The notes under the pieces: model-generated | Told to the model about the DNA's origin: nothing | What the model saw: only the letters and a program-made list of their open reading frames with translations | The model's database searches: none | Program-made: the position numbers and the translations under genes | Assembly: GCA_036703985.1 (NCBI GenBank) | Contig: DATNQN010000071.1 | Coordinates: 1 to 64,000, forward strand | Length of the DNA stretch: 64,000 nucleotides | Source: Leptolyngbyaceae cyanobacterium | GTDB lineage: Bacteria; Cyanobacteriota; Cyanobacteriia; Cyanobacteriales; Aerosakkonemataceae | Direction of reading: 5' to 3' | Shown here: piece after piece, positions 30,830 through 57,765 of the stretch | How the letters are laid out: each line of letters begins with the position of its first letter | How positions within the stretch are numbered: the stretch's first letter is position 1

Positions 30830-33800
30830 TTATTTATAAAGCCAGACGCGCATCAGAGATAATAACTGTTCGGTATCGACCGGTTTGCTGATATAGTCAG
30901 ATGCACCAGCTTCAATACATTTTTCTCGATCGCCTCTCATCGCTTTAGCAGTAAGAGCAATCATCGGTAGGGTTTGAAATTGTGGCATTTGCCGAATCGT
31001 TCGCATGGTTTGGTAACCATCCATTTCTGGCATCATTACATCCATGAGAACCAGATCTATATTTTGATTTGCCCGTAAAACAGCAATGCCGTCTCTACCA
31101 TTTTCCGCATACATTACCTGCATATTATGGCGTTCCAGCATACTGGTCAGGGCAAAAATATTCCGCACGTCATCATCTACAATTAAAACTTTTTTGCCCG
31201 CGAGTAAGCCATTTCTTTTATGAAGTTGCTCTAAAATTTCTCGCTTGGCTGCCGGTAAATTTGCTTGTACCCGATGCAAAAATAAAGCTGTTTCATCTAA
31301 TAAGGTTTCTGGCGATCGGGCATTTTTGATGTTAATCACCTCACTCATGCGTTTCAATTCATTTTCTTGTTCCTCACTCAAATTGTGTCCTGTATAAACG
31401 ATAATGGGTATGTTACTAAAGATAGATGCAACATTTTCTACTTCCTGCTTAATTCGTTCGATTAATTCAAAACCATTCATATCTGGCAAACTCAAATCTA
31501 GCACCACACAATCAAAGCATCCTGATTTGAGCGTTTCCAAGGCGGCTGCACCAGTTCCCACGGCGGTAGTAGCGACATCGCTATTGCCGATTAGTTCTAC
31601 AATACTGTGACGTTGATTTTCATCTGCTTCTACCACAAGTAGATTTTTTACCGGGCGTTGAACAAAAGATTTGATTTGAGAAATTGCTTGGGAGATCGCT
31701 TCAGTTGAGACTGGCTTTTGCAGATACGCAACTGCACCCAATTGCAAACCCCTTTGTCTTCCTTCCGCGACTGAAATAATATGCACCGGAATATGACGAG
31801 TATTCGGATCGTGTTTCAGGCGATCTAACACCGTCCACCCATCCATTAACGAGGTCAACATGATATCCAAAATGATGGCATGAGGCTTAAATTCTTGCGC
31901 CATTGCTAGCCCCGTCTCGCTACGCAAGGCTACCAACACTTTGAAGCCATTTTGTCGCGCTAATTCTAATAAGATCCGCGCAAAATTTACGTCGTCCTCA
32001 ATTATTAACAACACTATGTCATCGTTGTTCAGATCGCTGCGATCGTCTGCGATCGCAGGATAAGGTCGTTTTTGTCCCCCATCTTGTTGAGGAAAGATTT
32101 CCGTTACTGGTTTAGCTTGCACCGTTACTGTTTTTGCCGCCACAGTTGAAGTGGAAACCATTAAACTAGAAGCCGCAGAAACAGGATTTTTCTCAGTAGT
32201 AGATTGCTGTTCCGGTAAGGTTACCTTGGCCGTATTTACTGGTGTTGGCAAACTGCTAGGAGAGAAATTGTTTTGCGGAACGTAAAGCGTAAAAGTACTT
32301 CCCTGACCTAACACGCTAATCAGTTGAATTTCTCCGCCCAAAAGACGAGCTATTTCGCGACTGATCGATAACCCCAGCCCAGTACCGCCATATTTGCGGC
32401 TGGTAGTACCATCCGCTTGCTGAAATGCCTCAAAAATGATTTTTTGTTTATCGCTAGCAATCCCGATTCCCGTATCGATCACTGAGAAAAATATCACGCT
32501 AGAGGCATTATTTAAAGTTTCGTTATCCGGACTCCAACCTTCTGTAGTAAGGCCCGATCGCAGGATTACCCCTCCTTGGTCGGTAAACTTAAAAGCATTA
32601 GAAAGTAGATTTTTCAACACTTGTTGCAAGCGTTTCGAGTCAGTATAAATAGCTCTTGGCAGTTGCGAATCAAATTCTAGGGTGAAGTTCAATCCCTTGT
32701 CATGAGCTACTTGTTGAAAAGTGCGTTCTATTTGCTTTCGCAACTCAGAAAATAGCATCATATCAATTTCAATTGACATCGTGCCTGATTCAATTTTTGC
32801 CAGATCCAAAATGTCATTAATCAACCCCAACAAATCGGTTCCAGCCGAATGAATCGTTCGGGTATACTCTACTTGCTTAGGCGTTAGATTACCTTCCGGA
32901 TTATCAGCTAGTAGGCGAGCCAAAATCAACAAACTATTGAGGGGTGTTCTCAATTCATGAGACATATTGGCTAAAAATTCCGACTTGTATTTGGAACTCA
33001 AAGCTAATTGCTCGGCTTTTTCTTCTAAAGAACGTCGGGCTTGTTCTATTTCCCGATTCTTGCGTTCTACTTCTCTGTTTTGTAACTCCAATAGACGGGC
33101 TTTTTCTTCTAATTCTTCGTTGGTTTGCTGCAACTGTTCTTGTTGATTTTTTAGTAATTCTTCAGAAGCTTTCAGAGATTTGGCTTGTTCTTCCAATCGC
33201 TTGTTAGTTTCTCGCAATTCCCCTTGTTGAGTTTGCAATTCTTCTGCCAAAGACTGGGACTGTTTGAGTAATTCCTCAGTCCGCATACTGGCAGCGATCG
33301 TATTCAAAACGATCGCTATACTTTCCGTTAACTGGTCGAAGAATGTTAAGTGAATCTCGCTAAATCGACGGAAGGAAGCCAGTTCGATCACTGCCGTTAC
33401 TTGCCCTTCAAAAAGTACTGGCAATACAACTGCATTTAAAGGTTTTGATTCTCCCAAACCAGAACTAATTTTGATATAGTTATCCGGTACTTCCGTAATC
33501 AGAATCCGTTCTTTTTCTAGGGCGCACTGTCCGACTAATCCTTCACCCATACTGAAGCGATTTGCTAAATGTTTGCGTTCGCGATAAGCATAGGTGCTGA
33601 GGAGTTTCAAATAATGATCTGCTTCACTATTTTCCATTAAATAAAAGACACCGTGTTGGGCAGAAACCAGAGGTGCTAGTTCGGAAAGAATCAGTTTAGA
33701 AACTGTTTCCAAATCCCGCTGACCTTGCAGCATTCTGGTGAATTTCGCCAAATTGGTTTTCAACCAGTCTTGTTCGGTATTTTTCTGGGTAGTTTCGCGC

Positions 33801-36800
33801 AAGTTAGCAATCATTTGGTTGATGTTATCTTTCAGGATTGCTACTTCCCCTTGCGCTTCTACAGAAATCGATCGCGTTAAGTCACCCTTCGTTACCGCTG
33901 TCGCCACTTCTGCGATCGTTCTTAGCTGAGTAGTCAGCGTCGCCGCCAGTTCGTTCACGTTATCCGTCAGCGCCCGCCAAGTTCCAGCCGCCCCAGGTAC
34001 CTTCGCTTGTCCGCCCAACTTACCCTCAATACCCACTTCTCGCGCCACCGTAGTCACCTGATCCGCGAACGTCGCTAGGGTATCGATCATTTCATTAATC
34101 GTATCTGCCAAAGTTTCGATTTCCCCTTTGGCATCTAACATTAATTTTCGCTTCAAATCTCCATTCGCCACCGCCGTTACTACTCGTGCAATACCTCGCA
34201 CCTGCGCGGTTAAATTACCCGCCATCGAGTTCACGTTATCCGTCAAATCTTTCCAGACACCGGCGACACCCCGCACATCTGCTTGTCCGCCCAATTTTCC
34301 TTCCGTTCCTACCTCTCTCGCTACCCGCGTTACCTCTGAAGCGAAGGAACTCAGTTGATCCACCATCGTGTTGATGGTGTTCTTCAAATCTAAAATTTCC
34401 CCTTTTACATCAACGGTAATTTTCTTAGACAGATCCCCATTTGCCACCGCCTTAGTAACTTCGGCAATGTTTCTTACTTGGGCTGTCAAATTACCCGCCA
34501 TCGAGTTAACATTATCCGTCAAATCTTTCCAAGTGCCTGCTACCCCTCGCACGTAGGCTTGCACCCCTAATTTACCTTCCGTTCCCACCTCTCTCGCTAC
34601 CCTAGTTACCTCAGACGCGAAGGAATTAAGTTGATCCACCATCGTATTTATGGTGTTTTTCAACTCTAAAATTTCCCCTTTTACATCAACAGTAATCTTC
34701 TTAGAAAGATCCCCATTTGCTACCGCCGTCGTCACTTCTGCAATGTTTCTTACTTGGGCGGTTAAACTACCCGCCATGAAGTTCACGCTATCGGTTAATT
34801 CTTTCCAAATTCCGGCGACGCCTCCTACTTCCGCTTGTACGCCTAATTTTCCTTCCGTTCCTACTTCCCTCGCTACCCTTGTTACTTCTGATGCAAAGGA
34901 ATTAAGTTGATCCACCATCGTATTGACGGTGTTTTTCAACTCTAAAATTTCCCCTTTTACATCAACGGTAATTTTCTTAGAAAGATCCCCATTTGCTACC
35001 GCCGTCGTTACTGCGGCGATATTTCTTACTTGGGCGGTTAAACTACCCGCCATAAAATTCACGCTATCGGTTAAATCTTTCCACGTTCCCGCGACACCCC
35101 TTACATCAGCTTGTACGCCCAATTTTCCTTCCGAACCTACTTCACGGGCGACGCGAGTTACTTCTGATGCAAACGAACTGAGTTGATCCACCATCACGTT
35201 GATGGTGTTTTTCAACTCTAAAATTTCCCCTTTTACCGGAACAGTAATTTTCTTAGAAAGATCCCCATTTGCGATCGCAGTGGCAACTTCGGCAATGTTT
35301 CTTACTTGGGCAGTTAAGTTACTTGCCATCGAGTTAACATTATCCGTCAAATCTTTCCAAGTTCCCGCTACCCCTCGCACTTCCGCTTGTACGCCTAATT
35401 TTCCTTCCGTTCCTACTTCTCTCGCTACCCTTGTTACCTCTGATGCGAACGAACTCAGTTGATCCACCATCACGTTGATGGTGTTTTTCAACTCTAAAAT
35501 TTCCCCTTTTACATTAACCGTAATTTTCTTAGATAAATCTCCGTTTGCGATCGCAGTAGCAACTTCGGCAATATTCCGCACTTGTCCCGTTAAGTTACCC
35601 GCCATCAAATTCACGCTATCCGTTAAATCTTTCCAGGTTCCGGCTACCCCTCTTACTTCTGCTTGAACGCCTAATTTACCTTCCGTTCCTACTTCTCTCG
35701 CTACCCTAGTTACCTCAGATGCAAAGGAATTAAGTTGATCCACCATCGTATTGACGGTGTTTTTCAACTCTAAAATTTCCCCTTTAACATCTACGGTAAT
35801 CTTCTTAGAAAGATCGCCATTTGCAACAGCCGTCGTCACTTCTGCAATGTTTCTTACTTGGGCAGTCAAACTACCCGCCATAAAATTAACGCTATCGGTT
35901 AAATCTTTCCAAGTACCTGCAACACCTTTAACTTCTGCTTGTCCGCCTAATTTTCCTTCTGCGCCTACTTCCCTCGCTACCCTAGTTACTTCTGATGCAA
36001 ATGAACTGAGTTGATCCACCATGATGTTAACGGTGTTTTTCAACTCTAAAATTTCTCCTTTTACATCTACGGTAATCTTCTTAGAAAGGTCGCCATTTGC
36101 TACCGCCGTTGTCACTTCCGCAATGTTTCTTACTTGGGCGGTTAGGTTACTCGCCATCGAGTTTACCGAGTCGGTCAAATCTTTCCAAGTTCCCGCTACA
36201 CCAGGTACTTCTGCTTGTACGCCTAATTTACCTTCCGTTCCTACTTCCCTTGCTACCCTAGTTACTTCCGATGCAAAAGAATTAAGTTGATCCACCATTG
36301 TATTAACGGTGTTTTTTAATTCTAAAATTTCGCCTTTAACATCTACTGTAATTTTTTTCGATAAGTCGCCATTAGCAACAGCCGTCGTTACTTCTGCAAT
36401 ATTTCTTACTTGGGCGGTTAAATTTCCCCCCATCATATTGACCGAATCAGTCAAATCTTTCCATGTACCAGCGACACCCGGTACTTGTGCTTGCACGCCC
36501 AGTTTTCCTTCCGTTCCGACTTCTCTGGCAACGCGAGTTACTTCCGAAGCAAATGAGCTAAGTTGGGTAACCATCGTGTTAACAATTTCGGCAGTTTGGA
36601 GGAAGTCTCCTTTTAACGATCTGCCTTCAATTTCTAAAGCGATCGTTTGTGATAAATTTCCATTAGCTACCGAGCGGATCACGCGAGCAGTTTCCGCCAT
36701 TGGCTGCACTAAATCGGTAATTAAAGTATTAACTGAATTAACCGAATCAGTCCAAGAACCCCCTGCCGAACCAAGGGATGCTCGTTCGGAAATTTTCCCC

Positions 36801-37021
36801 TCTTTGCCTACTACTGTGCTGATGCGTTCTAGTTCTTTATTTGTTCTTTCATTTAATTCAATGATGTCGTTGATGGTATCGGCTATTTTTCCTGCTATAC
36901 CAGTTTTGTCAATAGGCATTCGTACCTTAAAATTACCTTTTTTAACCGCTACTAATACTTTTAGTAACTCTTTAGTATCTAAGCTATCTGAATCATCCTT
37001 AACTAATTGTTCAGCTGGCAT
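30830..37021 (-). CDS. Giant poly-HAMP hybrid histidine kinase
   Basis: A 2063-residue cytoplasmic kinase related to group III hybrid kinases. About 1,050 N-terminal residues are a tandem HAMP array: eleven modules of about 92 residues, each pairing an AREVGxEGKLG segment with a [11 protein letters not shown] segment. A GAF domain (about 1110-1260), a long Glu-rich coiled coil, HisKA ([11 protein letters not shown]), HATPase ([25 protein letters not shown]) and three receivers (about 1700-1815, 1820-1935, 1945-2063) follow. The middle receivers keep ILDIML and VLDLSLPD, the last [12 protein letters not shown]. No transmembrane segment is seen. Poly-HAMP arrays in fungal relatives sense osmotic state; the signal here is unknown. 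Confidence 0.92.
34080..36563 (-). repeat. Tandem 276-bp repeats encoding HAMP modules
   Basis: The motif TTGATC (of TTGATCCACCAT) occurs at 34355, 34631, 34907, 35183, 35459, 35735, 36011 and 36287, every interval being exactly 276 bp. Units are highly similar at the DNA level and no insertion or deletion has crept in over eight anchors. The outermost modules are more divergent. Such an array is prone to recombination and to assembly errors. Confidence 0.95.
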
Positions 37022-47426: not shown

Positions 47427-49088
47427 TTACCAAGTCACTCGCTCTTTTAACTTTTCTAACAAACTCGGCCCTACTCCTGGCACGTTGTCTAAATCTTCTA
47501 AAGATGTAAAAGGTTTCTGTTGACGGGCTTTGATAATCTCCTGGGCTAATTTTGGCCCTACGCCTGGAAGTGATTCTAATTCTTGTTGACTTGCTGTATT
47601 AATATTGATTTTTTGTCCGCCTAAGTTATCAATATTTGGTTGAGGGGGAGTTTTAAATTCTAGTTTATTTTTTATGCTGACTGTGGTAGGGAGAATAGAA
47701 GTTACCGGACATTGTTTTTGCTGGGCTTGAATTTTTTGTTTGATTCTCTCTGGTAAACCTAATATAGCATTACTATAAAGGCGTTCAAATTCTCGATCGA
47801 AGTGGGCAGCTACAGTGGGATTTTGGATTACTAAAACGGTTTCATCATTATTCGCATTAGCTGCGACTGACCAGTTGTGAGAACCGGTGATGACAATTTT
47901 ACTATCGACTACACCAAATTTGTGATGTAGTAGATCGCCTTTTAGTAATTGGGGAATGCCAACGGTAGAGATGGGGTCTTGCCAAGGGCGATTATCTGGT
48001 TCGTATTTACAATTGTTTGGGAGAGCAACTCCCATCATATCTAATGCTTCGCTATAGGGTCGATAGGCAAAATCAGGATCGATTAAAGCGCGGATTTGTA
48101 CGCCCTTTTGATGGTGATTTTCTAGCATATTAACCAGGCGTTGTTCGGAAAAAACGAACAGTGCGATGTTTACGGATCGACTAGCTAAATTTAAAGTTTT
48201 GCCAATTAAACCGTTACTGCTTTCTTCCCAAGGTTTGGTGGGAGATGTGGGAGAAAATTGTACTTCTATATTATTGTTTCCTTCAATAATTTGCTGGGCT
48301 GGACGAAGGGGTTTTTGAATGCCAAATTTACTGTCTGGTTGACCATTAGGGCCATCTCCCCACATAATGTTAAATTCTTCGGTAAATAAGTAAGCTAACT
48401 GGGAACTTTCAATTTTGAGCAGATTGTTAGCATTACCTAAACTACTGAGATGATTGAAGTCGCCGTGAGTGTCGCTGGTAGTAAGATTGGCAGAAGTAAT
48501 AATTAGAGTATTGCGATCGATTATTACGAATTTGTGGTGCATTAAACCGCTGCCTTTAGAACCATCGGCAGTATCATCAATTATGGGAATATCTGCTTTT
48601 TGTAAAATGACGATCGCATCTCCTCGATCGATCTCTTCTGCACTCAGTTGATTATCCCTATTTTGGTCTACTAATTTAATGAATTCTTGGTAGCGTCCTT
48701 TTTCCCGTTCTGGCAGTTTTGCTATTTCGTCTGATGTTAATTTACTCCACGGACGGCTGTAACTATTTTCTAAAATCACTCGCACCTTTACCCCAGCTTT
48801 CTTTTTTTCTGCCAAAGCTTTGGCTATTTTGGGTAGGCGCAACTCTTGCACTGCTACATCTACTGTTGATTGGGCGGTATTAATGGTATCAACGATTACT
48901 TGTTCTAAGTCATCTCCGCTACGTCTTTGTCGGCGGTACGGTTCTACATATTCACTCGACCGATCGTGATTGAAATAAACTTCCACAAAAGGATCTTGAG
49001 GTAGGGGAGTAGGTCGATTAATTTGTGTTTTTGCTTGTTGACAAGCTACCAGGATCGATGCTAAGAGGGTTAAAACTGCTTTTTTCAC
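47427..49088 (-). CDS. Phospholipase D-like lipoprotein with EF-hand loop and HhH domain
   Basis: A 553-residue exported lipoprotein (signal ending SILVAC, lipidated C16). Two PLD half-sites are complete: HHKFVIID with H184, K186 and D191, and HHKFGVVD near residue 390, each followed by the downstream Asn/Ser region (SANLT, GSHNWS). A canonical EF-hand calcium loop DQNRDNQLSAEE (141-152) is inserted just before the first HKD motif. The C terminus (about 493-553) is a ComEA-like double helix-hairpin-helix DNA-binding domain: NINTASQQELESLPGVGP and LDNVPGVGPSLL. The architecture suggests a calcium-dependent surface nuclease or DNA-handling protein rather than a lipase; that is inference. Confidence 0.88.
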   Translation of the reverse strand: MKKAVLTLLASILVACQQAKTQINRPTPLPQDPFVEVYFNHDRSSEYVEPYRRQRRSGDDLEQVIVDTINTAQSTVDVAVQELRLPKIAKALAEKKKAGVKVRVILENSYSRPWSKLTSDEIAKLPEREKGRYQEFIKLVDQNRDNQLSAEEIDRGDAIVILQKADIPIIDDTADGSKGSGLMHHKFVIIDRNTLIITSANLTTSDTHGDFNHLSSLGNANNLLKIESSQLAYLFTEEFNIMWGDGPNGQPDSKFGIQKPLRPAQQIIEGNNNIEVQFSPTSPTKPWEESSNGLIGKTLNLASRSVNIALFVFSEQRLVNMLENHHQKGVQIRALIDPDFAYRPYSEALDMMGVALPNNCKYEPDNRPWQDPISTVGIPQLLKGDLLHHKFGVVDSKIVITGSHNWSVAANANNDETVLVIQNPTVAAHFDREFERLYSNAILGLPERIKQKIQAQQKQCPVTSILPTTVSIKNKLEFKTPPQPNIDNLGGQKININTASQQELESLPGVGPKLAQEIIKARQQKPFTSLEDLDNVPGVGPSLLEKLKERVTW

Positions 49089-49891: not shown

Positions 49892-51058
49892 ATGCAAATT
49901 TATTTAGATTACAGCGCTACAACGCCGCCTCGCAAAGAGGCGATCGCAATGATGCAAGAAGTCCTCAACCACCAGTGGGGCAACCCTTCCAGCTTGCACG
50001 AGTGGGGACAAAGGGCAGCTACTATTTTGGAACAAGCGAGAATGCAGGTGGCGGGACTGATTAATGCACCAGCAGAGTCGATTATCTTTACCTCTGGCGG
50101 GACGGAAGCGGATAACTTTGCCATTATGGGTGTGGCGCGATGTTACGCTCAACCGCAGCACGTAATTATTTCCAGCGTCGAACATTCGGCAGTAGCAGAA
50201 CCAGTCCGGTTATTGGAACAATGGGGTTGGGAAGTCACTCGTTTACCGGTGGATAAGTGGGGACGAGTTAACGAAAATGACTTAGAAAACGCGATTCAAC
50301 CCAATACGGTTTTAGTTTCGATTATTTACGGCCAAAGTGAAGTAGGTACTTTGCAACCTGTGGAAGCTTTGGGCAATATTACTCGTTCTCGCGGTATTTT
50401 ATTACACACAGATGCGGTGCAAGTGGCTGGGCGTTTGCCTATAGACGTGCAGAAGTTACCAGTAGACTTGCTTTCTCTTTCCAGTCACAAAATTTATGGC
50501 CCGCAAGGTGCTGGGGCGTTGTATATTCGCCCTGGAGTGCAGTTAGTGCCTTTGTTGGGGGGTGGCGGACAAGAGATGCGGTTGCGATCGGGAACGCAGG
50601 CTTTGCAAACGATCGCGGGTTTTGGGGTGGCGGCGGAACTGGCGGCGGCGGAGATTGCGGAGGAAACGCCTCGATTGATTCGGTTGCGCGATCGTTTGTT
50701 CGACCAATTAGCGGATATCCCTAATTTAATTCCCACCGGTCATCGCTGGCACAGATTACCCCATCATGTCAGTTTTTGTTTGCAAAATGCTGATGGGGAA
50801 GTGCTCAGTGGTAGAACTGTGGTGCGACAGATGAATTTAGCGGGAATTGGGATTAGTGCTGGTGCTGCTTGCAGTAGCGGTAAGCTTTCCCCCAGTCCGA
50901 TTTTGTTGGCAATGGGTTATAGCGAATCGGCGTCTAAGGCGGCGATTCGCTTAACAGTGGGGCGACATACTGCGGAAGCGGATGTAGATTGGACGGCAAT
51001 GGTACTCAAGCAGGTTTTGCAAAGATTGACGCCGGAACCGGCTTTTTCTCAAGTTTAG
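49892..51058 (+). CDS. Cysteine desulfurase (IscS/NifS family)
   Basis: A pyridoxal-phosphate enzyme of 388 residues that releases sulfur from cysteine for iron-sulfur clusters and thiocofactors. Conserved features: YLDYSATTPP at the N terminus, SGGTEADNFA near residue 70, HTDAVQ near 175, the PLP lysine in SSHKIYGP near 200, and the catalytic Cys in GAACSSGK near 328. It is a group I (IscS/NifS) enzyme by the short loop after that Cys. It is followed 81 bp later by the peroxiredoxin gene. Confidence 0.93.
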   Translation: MQIYLDYSATTPPRKEAIAMMQEVLNHQWGNPSSLHEWGQRAATILEQARMQVAGLINAPAESIIFTSGGTEADNFAIMGVARCYAQPQHVIISSVEHSAVAEPVRLLEQWGWEVTRLPVDKWGRVNENDLENAIQPNTVLVSIIYGQSEVGTLQPVEALGNITRSRGILLHTDAVQVAGRLPIDVQKLPVDLLSLSSHKIYGPQGAGALYIRPGVQLVPLLGGGGQEMRLRSGTQALQTIAGFGVAAELAAAEIAEETPRLIRLRDRLFDQLADIPNLIPTGHRWHRLPHHVSFCLQNADGEVLSGRTVVRQMNLAGIGISAGAACSSGKLSPSPILLAMGYSESASKAAIRLTVGRHTAEADVDWTAMVLKQVLQRLTPEPAFSQV

Positions 51059-52884: not shown

Positions 52885-55800
52885 TTAAGCAGCTACGAGC
52901 CGTAATCTGTAGCTGACAGATTGCCCCGGACTAGCTTGATAAACTCGCAGGAAGTAGTTACCCGCAGCTAATCCAGTGCGATCGATTAACTCAGAGGTAG
53001 TAGCAGTATTGGCCACTAAAATTAAGTTACCCATGTTATCGTATAAAGCCATATCTGCATTTCCACCCGAATTGGTCAACAATACCTGTAACCTGTTACT
53101 AACTCCTCCCAAAGTGAACTGGTACAAGTCATCTGGATTAGCATCATTGATGGTATCAAGAGGGGGACGGAGTGGTGTTGCGGTAATGGTTCCGAGAGAT
53201 GTGGAAGGCAAATTCACTGTTAAAGTAGTTGTAGCGATCGCGCTATTGGCAATCCCATCGTTAATCGAAAAATTGATGGTGCGGCTGGTTGTATTCGGCA
53301 CATCTGCGGTGTTATTGTAAGTCACGCTGCGTAAAACTTGCTCGTATTGCCCTTTAGTAGCACTACCCGTCAGGCTTAACACGCCGCCCGAATAACTGAC
53401 GCCGATGCCAAAACTGCTAGCTAAAGCGTTATTCACTGCCAATACTTCTGAAGCACCGTTTTGCAAATTAGCAATTGTGACGCTTGCGCTTGCCATATTT
53501 GCACTATCGCTGTCAGTAACAGTTAGATTGCTACTATCGACTACGGCAACTGCACCGCCGCCTCTGGTAAAAGTAGCGCTGTAGTTATTGCCAGCACCCC
53601 CACCGTTTAAGTCCAATGCGGGTGGATTGTTAGGCACATCCACATTAAACGTTGCTAAAATACCAGCCGCCACATTATTATTGCTGGTGTCCCTAACTTG
53701 AGAAGCTTCCATTTGCACCGTATAAGTGCCGACATCCGCTGCATCCCAAGTGCCGCCTGGAGTGTTGATGCGGTAAGTTGCCGTGCGGGGAGTGCCGTTA
53801 CCGGGAGTATTGAGGCTAACGAAAGTTGCTAATTGATTAAAACTATTGGGTCCCGTAACTCGGATATCGCTATTATCCAAACTGCTGACATTTACAGCAA
53901 CGTTATCGCTGTAAGTAACCGTGAAATCGTAAGTAGCAGCACCAACTGTAGTAACGTTAGGGGCACTTACGCTGGCTGTAGGCGCGGTGGTATCCGGTGC
54001 GGCAACTACTACTTCTCCACAGAATTCCGAAGTATTGCCATTATTATCGGTTGCCGTTGCCACGATTTTGTCACCAACGTTAACGCTGATAGCTGGCGAA
54101 AACGAGAATATTTTATCAACGTTAGCTGTGCTGTAAGTATCTGAACCTAAGAAAGTTTTTCCTTCACCCGCGCCATCCGAAAGGAAAAATTCCACTCGAA
54201 TCGGATAGCTGGAATTAGCCGGATCGGAATTAATATTGTAAGTCAAGTCTAGATTTGAACCGTTAGCAATGGCGCTGCTAAAAGTGGGGAAATTCTGTAG
54301 GTTATTTGCACCAGTATCGCCATCGCCAGCGTCGTTAGCGGTTACTCCATCAGTACCCAGGTCGATGCCTAATCCAGTGTTGGAGAAGATGGAATTGGAG
54401 AGGAGCGAATTTCCAGTACCGCTGCTAATGCGAACACCATCGTCTCCATTAAAGGCGACAATATTCGCTGCACCAGCGCTAGTTCCACCAACGATATTAT
54501 TATTAGAAGAAGAGTAAATCTGGATGCCATACGTGCTATTGGCTAGCGAACTGATACCATCGGCTTTCGTGCCAATATAGTTACCGATAACTTGGTTGTT
54601 ATTGCTGCTGCTATTAATTCTGACGCCATCAATATTGTTACCAGAAATAACATTTCTGGCTGCGGCAGAAGTGCCTCCAATTGTATTATTATTTGCGCCA
54701 GCTATGATATTCACCCCAGAAGCGTTGTTACCCAAGTCAACAGTACCGTTGACATCGGTGCCGATATAATTTCCTTGGATCGTATTTCCTGTCGCACTGT
54801 TGCCGCTAATGGAAATTCCGTCATTGCCGTTGCCGGAAATAATATTGCGAGTTCCAGCCGCCGTTCCGCCGATCGCATTATTGGCTACATTATTAATCCA
54901 TAAGCCATATACGGAGTTACCAGCAGTAGCAGTACCAGCAGCATTCGTACCGATATAGTTACCCTGGATGATGTTATTTCCAATGGTTTCTAAACGAATG
55001 CCGTACTGACTGAATTGATTGATTACTAACCCTTTTACCGTACTGTTTCCGGCGGTGATGTACAAACCGCTGGCACTGCCAGCGCTACTACCACTTAACT
55101 GAATGAGTGGAGTACTGGAGAATCCAGGTTGAGTCGTACCGTCGATAATGACTGCTTCGGTAATGGTAGGTAATGCTGAAGTGGGAGTAATTGTTCTTAC
55201 CCCACTGCCAGGAATGTTAAATCGAATTGTTTCAATTCCTGCATCGGCATTAGCATTAATAATTGCTTGTCTCAAAGAACCGACGCCGCTATCATTCGTA
55301 TTCGTGACTACAAACTCGGTGTCGTCTACTGGGTTAACGGTGATGTTGAAACCATTATTGTTACCTAAACTTCCATCGTTTAAGCTAACTATAACAGTGT
55401 CAGTGCCATTGAAGTCTTGGTTGCCTCGATAAACTAATCCGCTGGCAGCAATAGTAGTATTAATTTGGCTGCGAGTACCCGTGAGGGTAACATTATTCGT
55501 GCCGTTGTTGGTGACAGATGTAACGCCGCCACTAATACTTGTATTTACGGTGAAAAATCCGTTAGTTGCTGTTAGATTGGCGGTAATATTATTGCTGCCG
55601 GAGTCAACTTCGATCGCGCTGAAATTCTTCAGAATCAAATCCGTATCTTCATTCACCACTTGATTAGTCAGCGTCGAGTTGGTAGTGACAGAAACTGAGG
55701 ATAGCCTAATATTGGCGCTGGCAGAAGTAGTGTTATCGCCCAGGAAAATAAAGTTAGGAGTTTGGTAGGGGTCTGGAAAGCCACTAAAGGCGGTGTAATC

Positions 55801-57765
55801 TCGCAGTTTGCCACTCAAAATGGTGGTATTTCCCGTAGATAAAGTATAGTTATTACCTAAAACTGTCAAACTGTAGGGAATTAAACTCGTGGTGTTAAAA
55901 GTAGCACCTTCTGCATGAGTAAATAGTAAATTAGTATTGCCCGGTGCGGATGTGGTTGGATTTGCGCTTGGGTTAGCTTGGGTTGTTCCATCTTCCTGCG
56001 CCCAGATTTCGTTTTGCCAGAATCCCAGTTCAATACCTTTTGCGTCGCTGTTGCTGAGGGCAATGATGCTGAAACCTGCTCGATCGCCAATGCCATCCCC
56101 GTTTTTATCTGCCGTACCGCTGGTGGTATGATCTTCAGAGACGACTTGGGCAGTAAAGTCGATCGTGTAGCCTGTGGTGCGATCGAGTACGGGCGTCCAC
56201 CCAGTATTGCTAAAGTAGCCAGCACCGAAACCGGAATTGGCAGTAGTATTTAGTGTGGTTGCCCCACCCGAAGCACTTTGAGTTCCTCCAGTGGCTAGGT
56301 AAGACCATCCTTGATTATTATCGGGCGTGGTATTCAACGAACCATCGTAGCGGGTGACGGCAGCACCCACAATGGGAGCATCGTTAACTGCTGTCACGTT
56401 AATTGTTTTAGTTGCAGCGTTACTAGTACCGCCATCCCCATCAGTGAGGACGAACTGTACCGTGCGACTAGCGGTGGCGGGGTTATCAGAGATATTTTGA
56501 TAAGTGATATTTCGCAGTAATGCTTGAGCGGCGGTGGGTGTAGCACTTGCATTAAAGGTAACGACTAGTGGGGTAGTACCGATTCCACCCGTAAAGGTAC
56601 CGATTTGAGTACCGCCGTATTTGACAATTCTGCCATCGATACCAATTTGTCCGGCGCTATTACCTTCGTGGCGAATGGCTAAACGATCGTCTGCTGTACC
56701 ACCTGCGGTAAAGTTGACGGTGAGAGCGCCAGTGTCGAAATCGGCAGAATTGCTGTCGGTAGCGGTTGATGTGCTATCGATGACTGTCGCGCTGGCATTT
56801 TCAGTGTAAGCTAAGGACGCAGCCGATAAGCTAATCACAGGCGCGGTGTTGACGGCATCGCCCAGTTTTAAGATAAAGATGTCAGAGCCACCAGCAGAAG
56901 TCAGGTTAGCCGTTCCCGCACCTGGGTCGAAATCTCCCGTGCCAGAGAAATAGCCAGTGGTGTAGGTATTGCCGTTACTATCGACGGCGATGCTATTGCC
57001 ATAGTCATTACCAGTGCCACCAATATTCTTAGCCCAAACATAGTTACCTGCTGAGTCGAATTTGCTGATGAAGATGTCAGAGAAACCAGCAGAAGTCAGG
57101 TTAGCGGTTCCCGCACCTGGATCGAAATCTACCGTGCCAGAGAAAGAGCCAGTGGTGTAGATATTGCCGTTACTATCGACGGCGATGCTCTTGCCAACGT
57201 CAGTAATAGTGCCACCAATCTTCTTAGCCCAAATCAAATCTCCAGGTAGTATGGCTTGGTAGGAACTTCTGGTGGTATCACTGATTGCTAATGGGACTTC
57301 TATTTGTCCGGTGGTCACTTCTAAATCCCAGTCTCCGCCTAATGCTGCACTTCCCGTCAAGTCATCGGATGCGGCGACATCTGCTCCCGTTAGCTGACTC
57401 AACTGCTGTACGAAGGCTACTCCCTTTTCTCCAGCTGCCACGTTGCAACCATATATAAGGATATCGGCATCTTGGGTGAGGGCGTTTGACCATTGGTTCA
57501 GTTCTCCCCGCTGGGGGTAGAGGTCTTCTAATGTTAGCTGCTCCGTCCCTAGCTGCAAGCTGCCCGATGCTCCGTGAGAGATGATGTGAATGCTGGAGAT
57601 GTTGCTGCGTTGAGCTAGAACTTCGGTAATTTTGGCTACGTCGCCTGTTGGGTTAAGGATTACTACTTCTGCTCCGGGTGCGACGCCTGCAATTAAGCTT
57701 GTATAATCTGAAACGCTTGGGTCAACGAAAACTATAGAATTTACCTTGTTCTCTTCGGTCAGCAT
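52885..57765 (-). CDS. Giant DUF4347 surface protein with beta-helix and PPC domain
   Basis: A 1626-residue extracellular-type protein without a classical signal peptide. It starts with a DUF4347 domain (about 8-165), followed by two SBBP beta-propeller repeats (about 175-300; DVGKSIAVDSNGNIYTTG and a similar unit), a cadherin-like region (about 305-465), a lectin-like block (about 480-690), a right-handed parallel beta-helix (about 830-1190, repeats of GNxIxGNYIGT), more Ig-like or cadherin-like domains and a C-terminal PPC domain (about 1535-1626). DUF4347 proteins are common, large cyanobacterial adhesins or S-layer-like proteins, probably exported by type I secretion. Confidence 0.85.
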   Translation of the reverse strand: MLTEENKVNSIVFVDPSVSDYTSLIAGVAPGAEVVILNPTGDVAKITEVLAQRSNISSIHIISHGASGSLQLGTEQLTLEDLYPQRGELNQWSNALTQDADILIYGCNVAAGEKGVAFVQQLSQLTGADVAASDDLTGSAALGGDWDLEVTTGQIEVPLAISDTTRSSYQAILPGDLIWAKKIGGTITDVGKSIAVDSNGNIYTTGSFSGTVDFDPGAGTANLTSAGFSDIFISKFDSAGNYVWAKNIGGTGNDYGNSIAVDSNGNTYTTGYFSGTGDFDPGAGTANLTSAGGSDIFILKLGDAVNTAPVISLSAASLAYTENASATVIDSTSTATDSNSADFDTGALTVNFTAGGTADDRLAIRHEGNSAGQIGIDGRIVKYGGTQIGTFTGGIGTTPLVVTFNASATPTAAQALLRNITYQNISDNPATASRTVQFVLTDGDGGTSNAATKTINVTAVNDAPIVGAAVTRYDGSLNTTPDNNQGWSYLATGGTQSASGGATTLNTTANSGFGAGYFSNTGWTPVLDRTTGYTIDFTAQVVSEDHTTSGTADKNGDGIGDRAGFSIIALSNSDAKGIELGFWQNEIWAQEDGTTQANPSANPTTSAPGNTNLLFTHAEGATFNTTSLIPYSLTVLGNNYTLSTGNTTILSGKLRDYTAFSGFPDPYQTPNFIFLGDNTTSASANIRLSSVSVTTNSTLTNQVVNEDTDLILKNFSAIEVDSGSNNITANLTATNGFFTVNTSISGGVTSVTNNGTNNVTLTGTRSQINTTIAASGLVYRGNQDFNGTDTVIVSLNDGSLGNNNGFNITVNPVDDTEFVVTNTNDSGVGSLRQAIINANADAGIETIRFNIPGSGVRTITPTSALPTITEAVIIDGTTQPGFSSTPLIQLSGSSAGSASGLYITAGNSTVKGLVINQFSQYGIRLETIGNNIIQGNYIGTNAAGTATAGNSVYGLWINNVANNAIGGTAAGTRNIISGNGNDGISISGNSATGNTIQGNYIGTDVNGTVDLGNNASGVNIIAGANNNTIGGTSAAARNVISGNNIDGVRINSSSNNNQVIGNYIGTKADGISSLANSTYGIQIYSSSNNNIVGGTSAGAANIVAFNGDDGVRISSGTGNSLLSNSIFSNTGLGIDLGTDGVTANDAGDGDTGANNLQNFPTFSSAIANGSNLDLTYNINSDPANSSYPIRVEFFLSDGAGEGKTFLGSDTYSTANVDKIFSFSPAISVNVGDKIVATATDNNGNTSEFCGEVVVAAPDTTAPTASVSAPNVTTVGAATYDFTVTYSDNVAVNVSSLDNSDIRVTGPNSFNQLATFVSLNTPGNGTPRTATYRINTPGGTWDAADVGTYTVQMEASQVRDTSNNNVAAGILATFNVDVPNNPPALDLNGGGAGNNYSATFTRGGGAVAVVDSSNLTVTDSDSANMASASVTIANLQNGASEVLAVNNALASSFGIGVSYSGGVLSLTGSATKGQYEQVLRSVTYNNTADVPNTTSRTINFSINDGIANSAIATTTLTVNLPSTSLGTITATPLRPPLDTINDANPDDLYQFTLGGVSNRLQVLLTNSGGNADMALYDNMGNLILVANTATTSELIDRTGLAAGNYFLRVYQASPGQSVSYRLRLVAA

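Follow-up and report, generated by a model that had tools for sequence, protein, structure and literature searches.

What a lipid-anchored protein that joins a phospholipase D (PLD) core to an EF-hand loop and a ComEA-like helix-hairpin-helix (HhH) pair does for a cyanobacterium is the question raised by one gene in a 64,000-nucleotide stretch of a Leptolyngbyaceae genome (GCA_036703985.1, contig DATNQN010000071.1, positions 1 to 64,000; hereafter the window). The original prediction, made from the sequence alone, was of a calcium-switched nuclease outside the cell that could process DNA for uptake or nutrition. Its ORF at 47427-49088 is real and exact in its coordinates; the strand, which had been left unstated, is minus. 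This single ORF starts with GTG and encodes 553 aa, no second ORF of at least 80 aa lies on either strand of the interval, and the gene is single-copy, being the sole match in its own genome at E<=0.001. Its features are as follows.

47427..49088, minus strand: coding sequence of PLD-ComEA, very probably of the ComA/Slr0197 type, 553 aa, GTG start (ORF; single own-genome match)
49041..49088, minus strand: signal peptide and lipobox LVAC, residues 1-16 (sequence; homologue pattern)
48360..48896, minus strand: first PLDc_2 domain, residues 65-243 (Pfam)
48621..48710, minus strand: predicted EF-hand helix-loop-helix, residues 127-156, within a segment missing from a Vibrio relative (structure model; comparison)
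48633..48668, minus strand: EF-hand loop DQNRDNQLSAEE, residues 141-152 (conservation; shuffles)
48516..48539, minus strand: HKD motif 1, H184, K186 and D191 (invariant alignment columns)
47778..48200, minus strand: second PLDc_2 domain, residues 297-437 (Pfam)
47904..47927, minus strand: HKD motif 2, H388, K390 and D395 (invariant columns, L040 excepted in one alignment)
47619..47702, minus strand: low-confidence linker, residues 463-490, pLDDT <50 (model)
47433..47615, minus strand: ComEA-like double helix-hairpin-helix, HHH_3, residues 492-552 (Pfam, TIGR00426)

A homologue of the neighbouring gene at 49892-51058, which we take to be a cysteine desulfurase, is encoded within the locus in 45 of the 54 named loci with full flanks. 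The window also holds two very large ORFs on the minus strand, 52885-57765 (1626 aa), which by eye resembles a repetitive surface protein, and 30830-37021 (2063 aa).

The proposed architecture (lipobox, PLD, EF loop and double HhH) was right, as judged by Pfam, TIGR00426 and the sequence itself. Pfam PLDc_2 scores 151 bits in two stretches and HHH_3 72 bits (cut-off 27 for each), HHH matches in two stretches, and the ComEA HhH-region model TIGR00426 gives 55.5 bits against a cut-off of 53.1. With two HxKxxxxD motifs, an SxN after each and a predicted PLD fold, the protein falls within the PLD (HKD) superfamily. Neither an alignment of 27 sequences nor one of 52 shows any variation at the H, K and D residues; in one further alignment the second motif is missing from L040 alone, where a prophage splits the gene. 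The lipobox LVAC16 has counterparts, by a simple pattern, in 37 of 50 sequences (window included) and in 61 of 80 homologues; outside the pattern, some homologues have the Cys in a slightly shifted setting and some have a hydrophobic N-terminus and no Cys. In a two-membrane cell, lipoproteins are anchored on a periplasmic face by default. The placement outside the cell that had been read from lipidation thus gives way to the periplasm, and a review of ComA agrees, setting it at the plasma membrane with its domains periplasmic (PMC7690421).

The protein is very probably the orthologue of Synechocystis ComA, also named ComEA (Slr0197), to which it was matched by descriptions of Slr0197; no locus titled Synechocystis or PCC 7120 stands among the best 80 of its 572 matches. 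As in that family, DNA-binding and endonuclease-type domains lie behind an export anchor and the gene co-occurs with ComEC. The slr0197 gene is required for transformation (PMC7690421, PMC10667661; also PMC7076178), and its product has been described as DNA-binding and as an endonuclease (PMC7690421). Under the name comEA, knock-out of the same gene abolishes gene transfer, and the slr0197 ORF positions named there, up to 844 bp, are long for a bare HhH ComEA (PMC10667661). All3087 of Anabaena 7120 has been called a Slr0197 orthologue (PMC3976300), and ComEA and ComEC are among the genes needed for natural transformation in Synechococcus elongatus (PMC7125226). The S. elongatus genome, used as a control, gave PLDc_2 matches and no TIGR00426 match at E<=0.001, the result expected if its 'ComEA' were an HhH-less PLD protein, for which this is indirect evidence. 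Instead of an unrecognised nuclease, then, the locus very probably encodes a member of a known competence family, and both the part of that family in competence and the idea of DNA cutting by it are already in print. New, as far as our searches show, are an EF-hand that is conserved, an HhH that can be dispensed with and a ComEC partner without the nuclease motif; the literature text available contains no mention of an EF-hand in the ComA/Slr0197 family and no link of ComA to the loss of the ComEC nuclease site.

The distribution of the gene follows that of ComEC closely. Among 60 relatives, 55 have a PLD-gene match at E<=0.001 (G027 weakly), and G005, G008, G034, G036 and G059 have none. All three relatives without ComEC, namely G034 and G059 (another genus, 99% complete) and the incomplete G036, also lack the PLD gene; the remaining two, G005 and G008, do have ComEC. 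Across 291 genomes of the class, the gene is found in 275 at E<=0.001 and in 264 at E<1e-20, and by the latter count PLD-ComEA is near-universal in cyanobacteria. Seventeen of the 27 genomes without it come from one family (f34), 16 of these having 1.6-1.9 Mb. ComEC (PF03772) is present in 262 of the 291, and in the genome of the window. Both genes occur together in 253 genomes and neither in 18, with 20 mixed cases (11 PLD only, 9 ComEC only); 16 of the 18 double absences belong to one small-genome family and so represent few independent losses. Four of the 11 PLD-only genomes are at least 90% complete, as are five with ComEC only (G196, G228 and G287, 99%; G117, 94%; G318, 93%), although the ComEC frame of G287 is cut short at 333 aa. 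Together with the published slr0197 phenotype, this co-distribution gives good support to the role with incoming DNA that had been foreseen.

In Moorella, ComEC carries a Mn2+-dependent nuclease in its C-terminal metallo-beta-lactamase-like domain, and the equivalent motif II aspartates of Bacillus subtilis are important for transformation (PMC8579336). The characterised nuclease domain is missing from nearly half of all ComEC proteins, for which the breakdown of the non-transforming strand is posed as an open question (PMC8579336). The main cyanobacterial ComEC profile consists of DUF4131 and Competence, with no Lactamase_B (PMC6299819); the ComEC of our own genome likewise shows only these two, with no lactamase domain by Pfam. 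In an alignment with E. coli YcaI (HEHLDH) as positive control, the metal-binding motif was absent in 53 of 53 cyanobacterial genomes (30 ComEC loci of relatives, 20 that we chose from the 291-genome ComEC search and 3 others, with the own genome, present in two rows, counted once and the broken G287 ComEC excluded), G213 being without the whole domain. The C-terminal domain is still recognisable in most of the aligned cyanobacterial sequences, and the Asp-Thr-Gly preceding the motif has mostly become Asn-Ser-Gly; the comparison suggests a scaffold kept without catalysis. A non-catalytic ComEC domain has also been considered for Streptococcus pneumoniae, which uses EndA (PMC8579336). Among the matches listed, at least eight f45 genomes have short ComEC frames (512-550 aa), a length that would fit loss of the entire C-terminal domain (G213 is the one that was read); other f45 genomes have full-length frames.

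A motif-less ComEC can occur without the PLD gene, as it does in G196 and G228 (99% complete), and this counts against a simple exchange. G117, also without the PLD gene, has immediately upstream of comEC a distinct gene for an exported ComEA-like protein with two HhH matches (G117:C102; L249, L251), which is the usual layout in other phyla. An intact ComEC motif was expected in this genome, given its comEA-comEC pair and missing PLD gene; the motif reads DDHAEQ, and the domain gives a weak Lactamase_B_2 match (E 0.03). With PLD gene and intact motif both missing, G117 too speaks against a straightforward swap and is no clean natural experiment.

The HhH domain, by which ComEA proteins are named, proved to be dispensable. 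Of the 79 rows scored, with the prophage-split L040 and the Vibrio relative left out, 37 have it and 42 do not. A tree of the PLD core that excluded the EF region (81 rows, Vibrio outgroup, a quick method, weak support at many forks) implies at least 13 changes of state for the HhH and at least three for the EF loop. Judged from these sequences, it is the PLD core and EF loop that stay constant and the HhH that varies, contrary to what the ComEA name would lead one to expect. Loss seems to be under way at three Nostoc loci, the HhH being out of frame with the PLD part in L131 and L133 and without a match in L128. The Vibrio relative, which is 37% identical over residues 35-441 and lies on plasmids (L288:3929-5380), has an apparent signal peptide, no EF-hand segment and a weak C-terminal HHH_3 just below the cut-off (26.2 vs 27 bits), so that the PLD-HhH protein is, by this match, not confined to cyanobacteria.

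A separate ComEA in the HhH-less lineages was sought and not found: TIGR00426 exceeded its cut-off in none of 24 genomes (23 with the HhH-less form plus G117), a test that is weak alone, as the ComEA-like protein of G117 also falls under the cut-off (47.2 vs 53.1 bits). Outside G117 there were 20 sub-threshold matches. Among the 14 examined by eye, we take three to be Tex and one to be PsbU-like, five are cytosolic- or membrane-looking HhH proteins of a kind found also in the own genome, and the rest are others; the remaining six are Tex-sized frames (723-734 aa; 725, 729, 726). Two short exported single-HhH proteins of G104 (L261, L268) could be DNA receptors and count against a clean loss of ComEA. 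The other HHH_3 matches of the own genome are presumably Tex and PsbU, together with a cytosolic-looking HhH protein, a lipoprotein of different layout and one weak match. Elsewhere, G025 carries fragments of a decayed second copy with HhH (G025:C1:362617-366215, L276), apart from its intact HhH-less copy.

Phage DNA was met at this gene in G023, where a prophage-like insertion of ~53 kb (G023:C29:90558-143529; L274, L275) splits PLD-ComEA at the second HKD motif. A perfect 49-bp repeat at both ends marks a phage attachment site that lies within a competence gene and brings to mind the comK prophage of Listeria. Its two 15-kb ends contain a 1587-aa tape-measure-sized ORF and other genes that look phage-like by eye, their roles being our assumption. 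An IMG/VR search for independent phages with this attachment site returned one contig, which is not independent because it is 100% identical over 11,225 bases to DNA of the same genome. A contig classed as viral (IMGVR_UViG_3300012986_000002, L278) carries an uninterrupted HhH-less PLD-ComEA gene of 57% identity, flanked by genes whose origin is unclear; the copy may be borne by a phage or belong to host DNA. A plasmid search with the DNA region of the window gave no match.

For the catalytic core, an AlphaFold model of residues 26-553 (52 aligned sequences, mean pLDDT 90.1) was compared with the PDB by VIA-align, with model residues 2-427 well covered. The best match of the predicted fold is 7e0m, titled phospholipase D (Z 32.9, 325 residues, rmsd 3.0). 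PLD3 and PLD4 match over the whole PLD core (Z 30-31, about 16-18% identity), the title of one such entry naming 5' exonuclease-mediated nucleic acid degradation; E. coli phosphatidylserine synthase reaches Z 28.8, further PLD-fold matches include lipid enzymes, and the latter half of the core is matched by Nuc (Z 22.1, 148 residues) and by NucT (Z 21.3, 152 residues). Such similarity of fold is no proof of function, and PLD folds serve lipid enzymes too; a 5' polarity of the putative nuclease is suggested from the PLD3/PLD4 match alone. Defence assignments, DISARM DrmC among them, and cardiolipin synthase were considered and rejected. DrmC scores 74 bits against an NCBIfam cut-off of 133 (PADLOC matches are many but weak, which we put down to the shared PLD fold, and the genes adjoining PLD-ComEA are by eye unlike DISARM genes), and cardiolipin synthase scores far under its cut-off. 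The NucT equivalog models (NCBIfam NF010490-NF010493) reach at best 83.8 bits against 297.

Several known systems resemble the protein in part. The 5' exonucleases PLD3 and PLD4 are its best nuclease fold matches, but they are mammalian, and we know of no EF-hand or HhH described in them. Bacterial ComEA shares the C-terminal double HhH, which matches TIGR00426 and the ComE operon protein 1 chains 8dss and 8dfk, whereas the window protein adds a PLD core and EF-hand segment, and its family often lacks the HhH. NucT of Helicobacter pylori, functionally the closest analogue, is a periplasmic, membrane-associated PLD endonuclease implicated in transformation, but is a short chain that pairs as a dimer, with neither EF-hand nor HhH; it is cation-independent, has a mild transformation phenotype, which tells against the nuclease reading, and is implicated in purine salvage (PMC5714352). 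EndA of S. pneumoniae offers a parallel in that a separate nuclease acts on the non-transforming strand while the ComEC domain has substituted ligands (PMC8579336), although its nuclease family is unrelated to the PLD protein.

The putative calcium loop (DQNRDNQLSAEE, residues 141-152) lies, as predicted, between ENSYSRPWSKL (107-117) and the first HKD motif (184-191; H184, K186, D191), with Asp, Asn, Asp and Glu at EF-hand positions 1, 3, 5 and 12. The proposed Pfam architecture search was borne out for PLDc_2 and HHH_3 and fell short for the EF-hand, whose models gave E 0.17 and 0.21 (11.9 and 11.6 bits vs cut-offs of 25.4-25.9). EF-hand_5 matches at E<=0.1 in 21 of 52 aligned members (window included), at best with 1.5e-4. 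When the protein was shuffled 20,000 times, 42 of the results fitted a strict EF pattern that we defined ourselves and 362 a loose one. Conservation, on which the prediction depended, is the stronger evidence in these alignments. The loop is present in 47 of 50 sequences (window plus 49 relatives), all 47 having Asp at position 1, Asn/Asp at 3 and Asp/Asn at 5, and in 27 of 30 further class-wide genomes, family f46 included in the conservation and L241, L243 and L244 without it; D1 is conserved in 80 of 81 rows (window plus 80 named loci), and so, by the same count, is E12. The canonical Gly at position 6 occurs in 28 of 50 rows and not in the window protein. The model folds the region as expected, as helix (127-140), loop and helix (150-156). 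Against the Vibrio relative as outside comparison, the segment is seen only in cyanobacterial sequences.

The conserved loop would argue for Ca2+ binding, not for switching. A lone EF-hand in a protein outside the cytoplasm usually has a structural role, and HKD enzymes work by covalent phospho-histidine chemistry with no catalytic metal; since this mechanism needs no metal, the best reading of Ca2+ at the EF-hand is a structural one, and if Ca2+ binds, its part is probably structural and not regulatory. The switch first proposed, in which Ca2+ at the loop turns DNA cleavage on and off, would be in keeping with the conservation of the loop across the class and with the modelled helix-loop-helix shortly before the first HKD motif, but 6 of 80 scored homologues lack the loop and yet keep their HKD motifs, and the PLD nuclease NucT is cation-independent (PMC5714352). 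We regard such a switch as unsupported and improbable.

Overall, our assessment, at a probability of roughly 60%, is that the protein stands in for ComEC as a PLD nuclease of the periplasm and breaks down incoming DNA, probably its non-transforming strand. ComEC seems to have lost its DNA-cutting site, and the PLD protein is therefore the leading candidate for the missing step. ComA would be lipid-anchored on a periplasmic face and act in natural transformation: type IV pili would pull DNA in, the C-terminal HhH pair, where present, would hold it, and the two HKD half-sites would come together as a single PLD active site, at which the DNA is hydrolysed while still in the periplasm. The most likely target would be the non-transforming strand, so that ComEC passes a single strand inward. 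In some other bacteria the metallo-beta-lactamase-like domain of ComEC degrades that strand; in cyanobacteria, with the ligand motif lost, the PLD protein would do so instead. The EF-hand probably binds periplasmic Ca2+ and may rigidify the segment beside the first HKD motif. Of the parts of this reading, a nuclease role of PLD-ComEA in transformation is likely, and its replacement of the ComEC nuclease is evenly poised. A wider form, in which the strand-degrading step moved from ComEC, now a non-catalytic channel, to a Ca2+-stabilised PLD nuclease and 'ComEA' in many lineages is a PLD 5'-exonuclease with an optional HhH, is tentative, with odds a little short of even.

Other readings account for some of the same evidence. 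DNA binding by itself could explain the comA phenotype, a point against a nuclease, and the knock-out cannot separate binding from cutting; as ComEA proteins are DNA receptors and the HhH exceeds the TIGR00426 cut-off, PLD-ComEA might be such a receptor, its PLD fold helping to bind DNA and catalysis being incidental. The invariant HKD residues speak against this, as does an HhH so often gained or lost and absent from over half of the scored rows; the want of another TIGR00426 protein over the cut-off in the 23 HhH-less-form genomes points the same way, weakly by itself given the G117 protein that this cut-off misses. A receptor is thus unlikely. A nutritional or surface nuclease, which would draw phosphate or purines from environmental DNA and be unlinked to transformation, has a precedent in the purine salvage of NucT (PMC5714352) and fits the secreted-looking relative on Vibrio plasmids, in one of which it was read two genes from a glycosidase gene, but it is hard to reconcile with the co-distribution with ComEC and with the published transformation defect of slr0197 mutants (PMC7690421, PMC10667661); we give it little credence. 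Least probable by far is a lipid-acting phospholipase D or phosphatidyltransferase: the title of the best fold match and the phosphatidylserine synthase match are what such an enzyme would give, yet here the core is fused to a DNA-binding HhH, matches the nucleases PLD3/PLD4, Nuc and NucT strongly, and belongs to a presumed family with a competence phenotype.

For a genetically workable phylum, the periplasmic PLD nuclease reading would supply a candidate strand-degrading nuclease with predicted catalytic residues. The candidate is paired with the absence of the ComEC motif in all 53 genomes compared, and bears on the question of how the strand is degraded where ComEC lacks a nuclease. It also carries a warning for annotation, as 'ComEA' in cyanobacteria may often mean a PLD protein without HhH.
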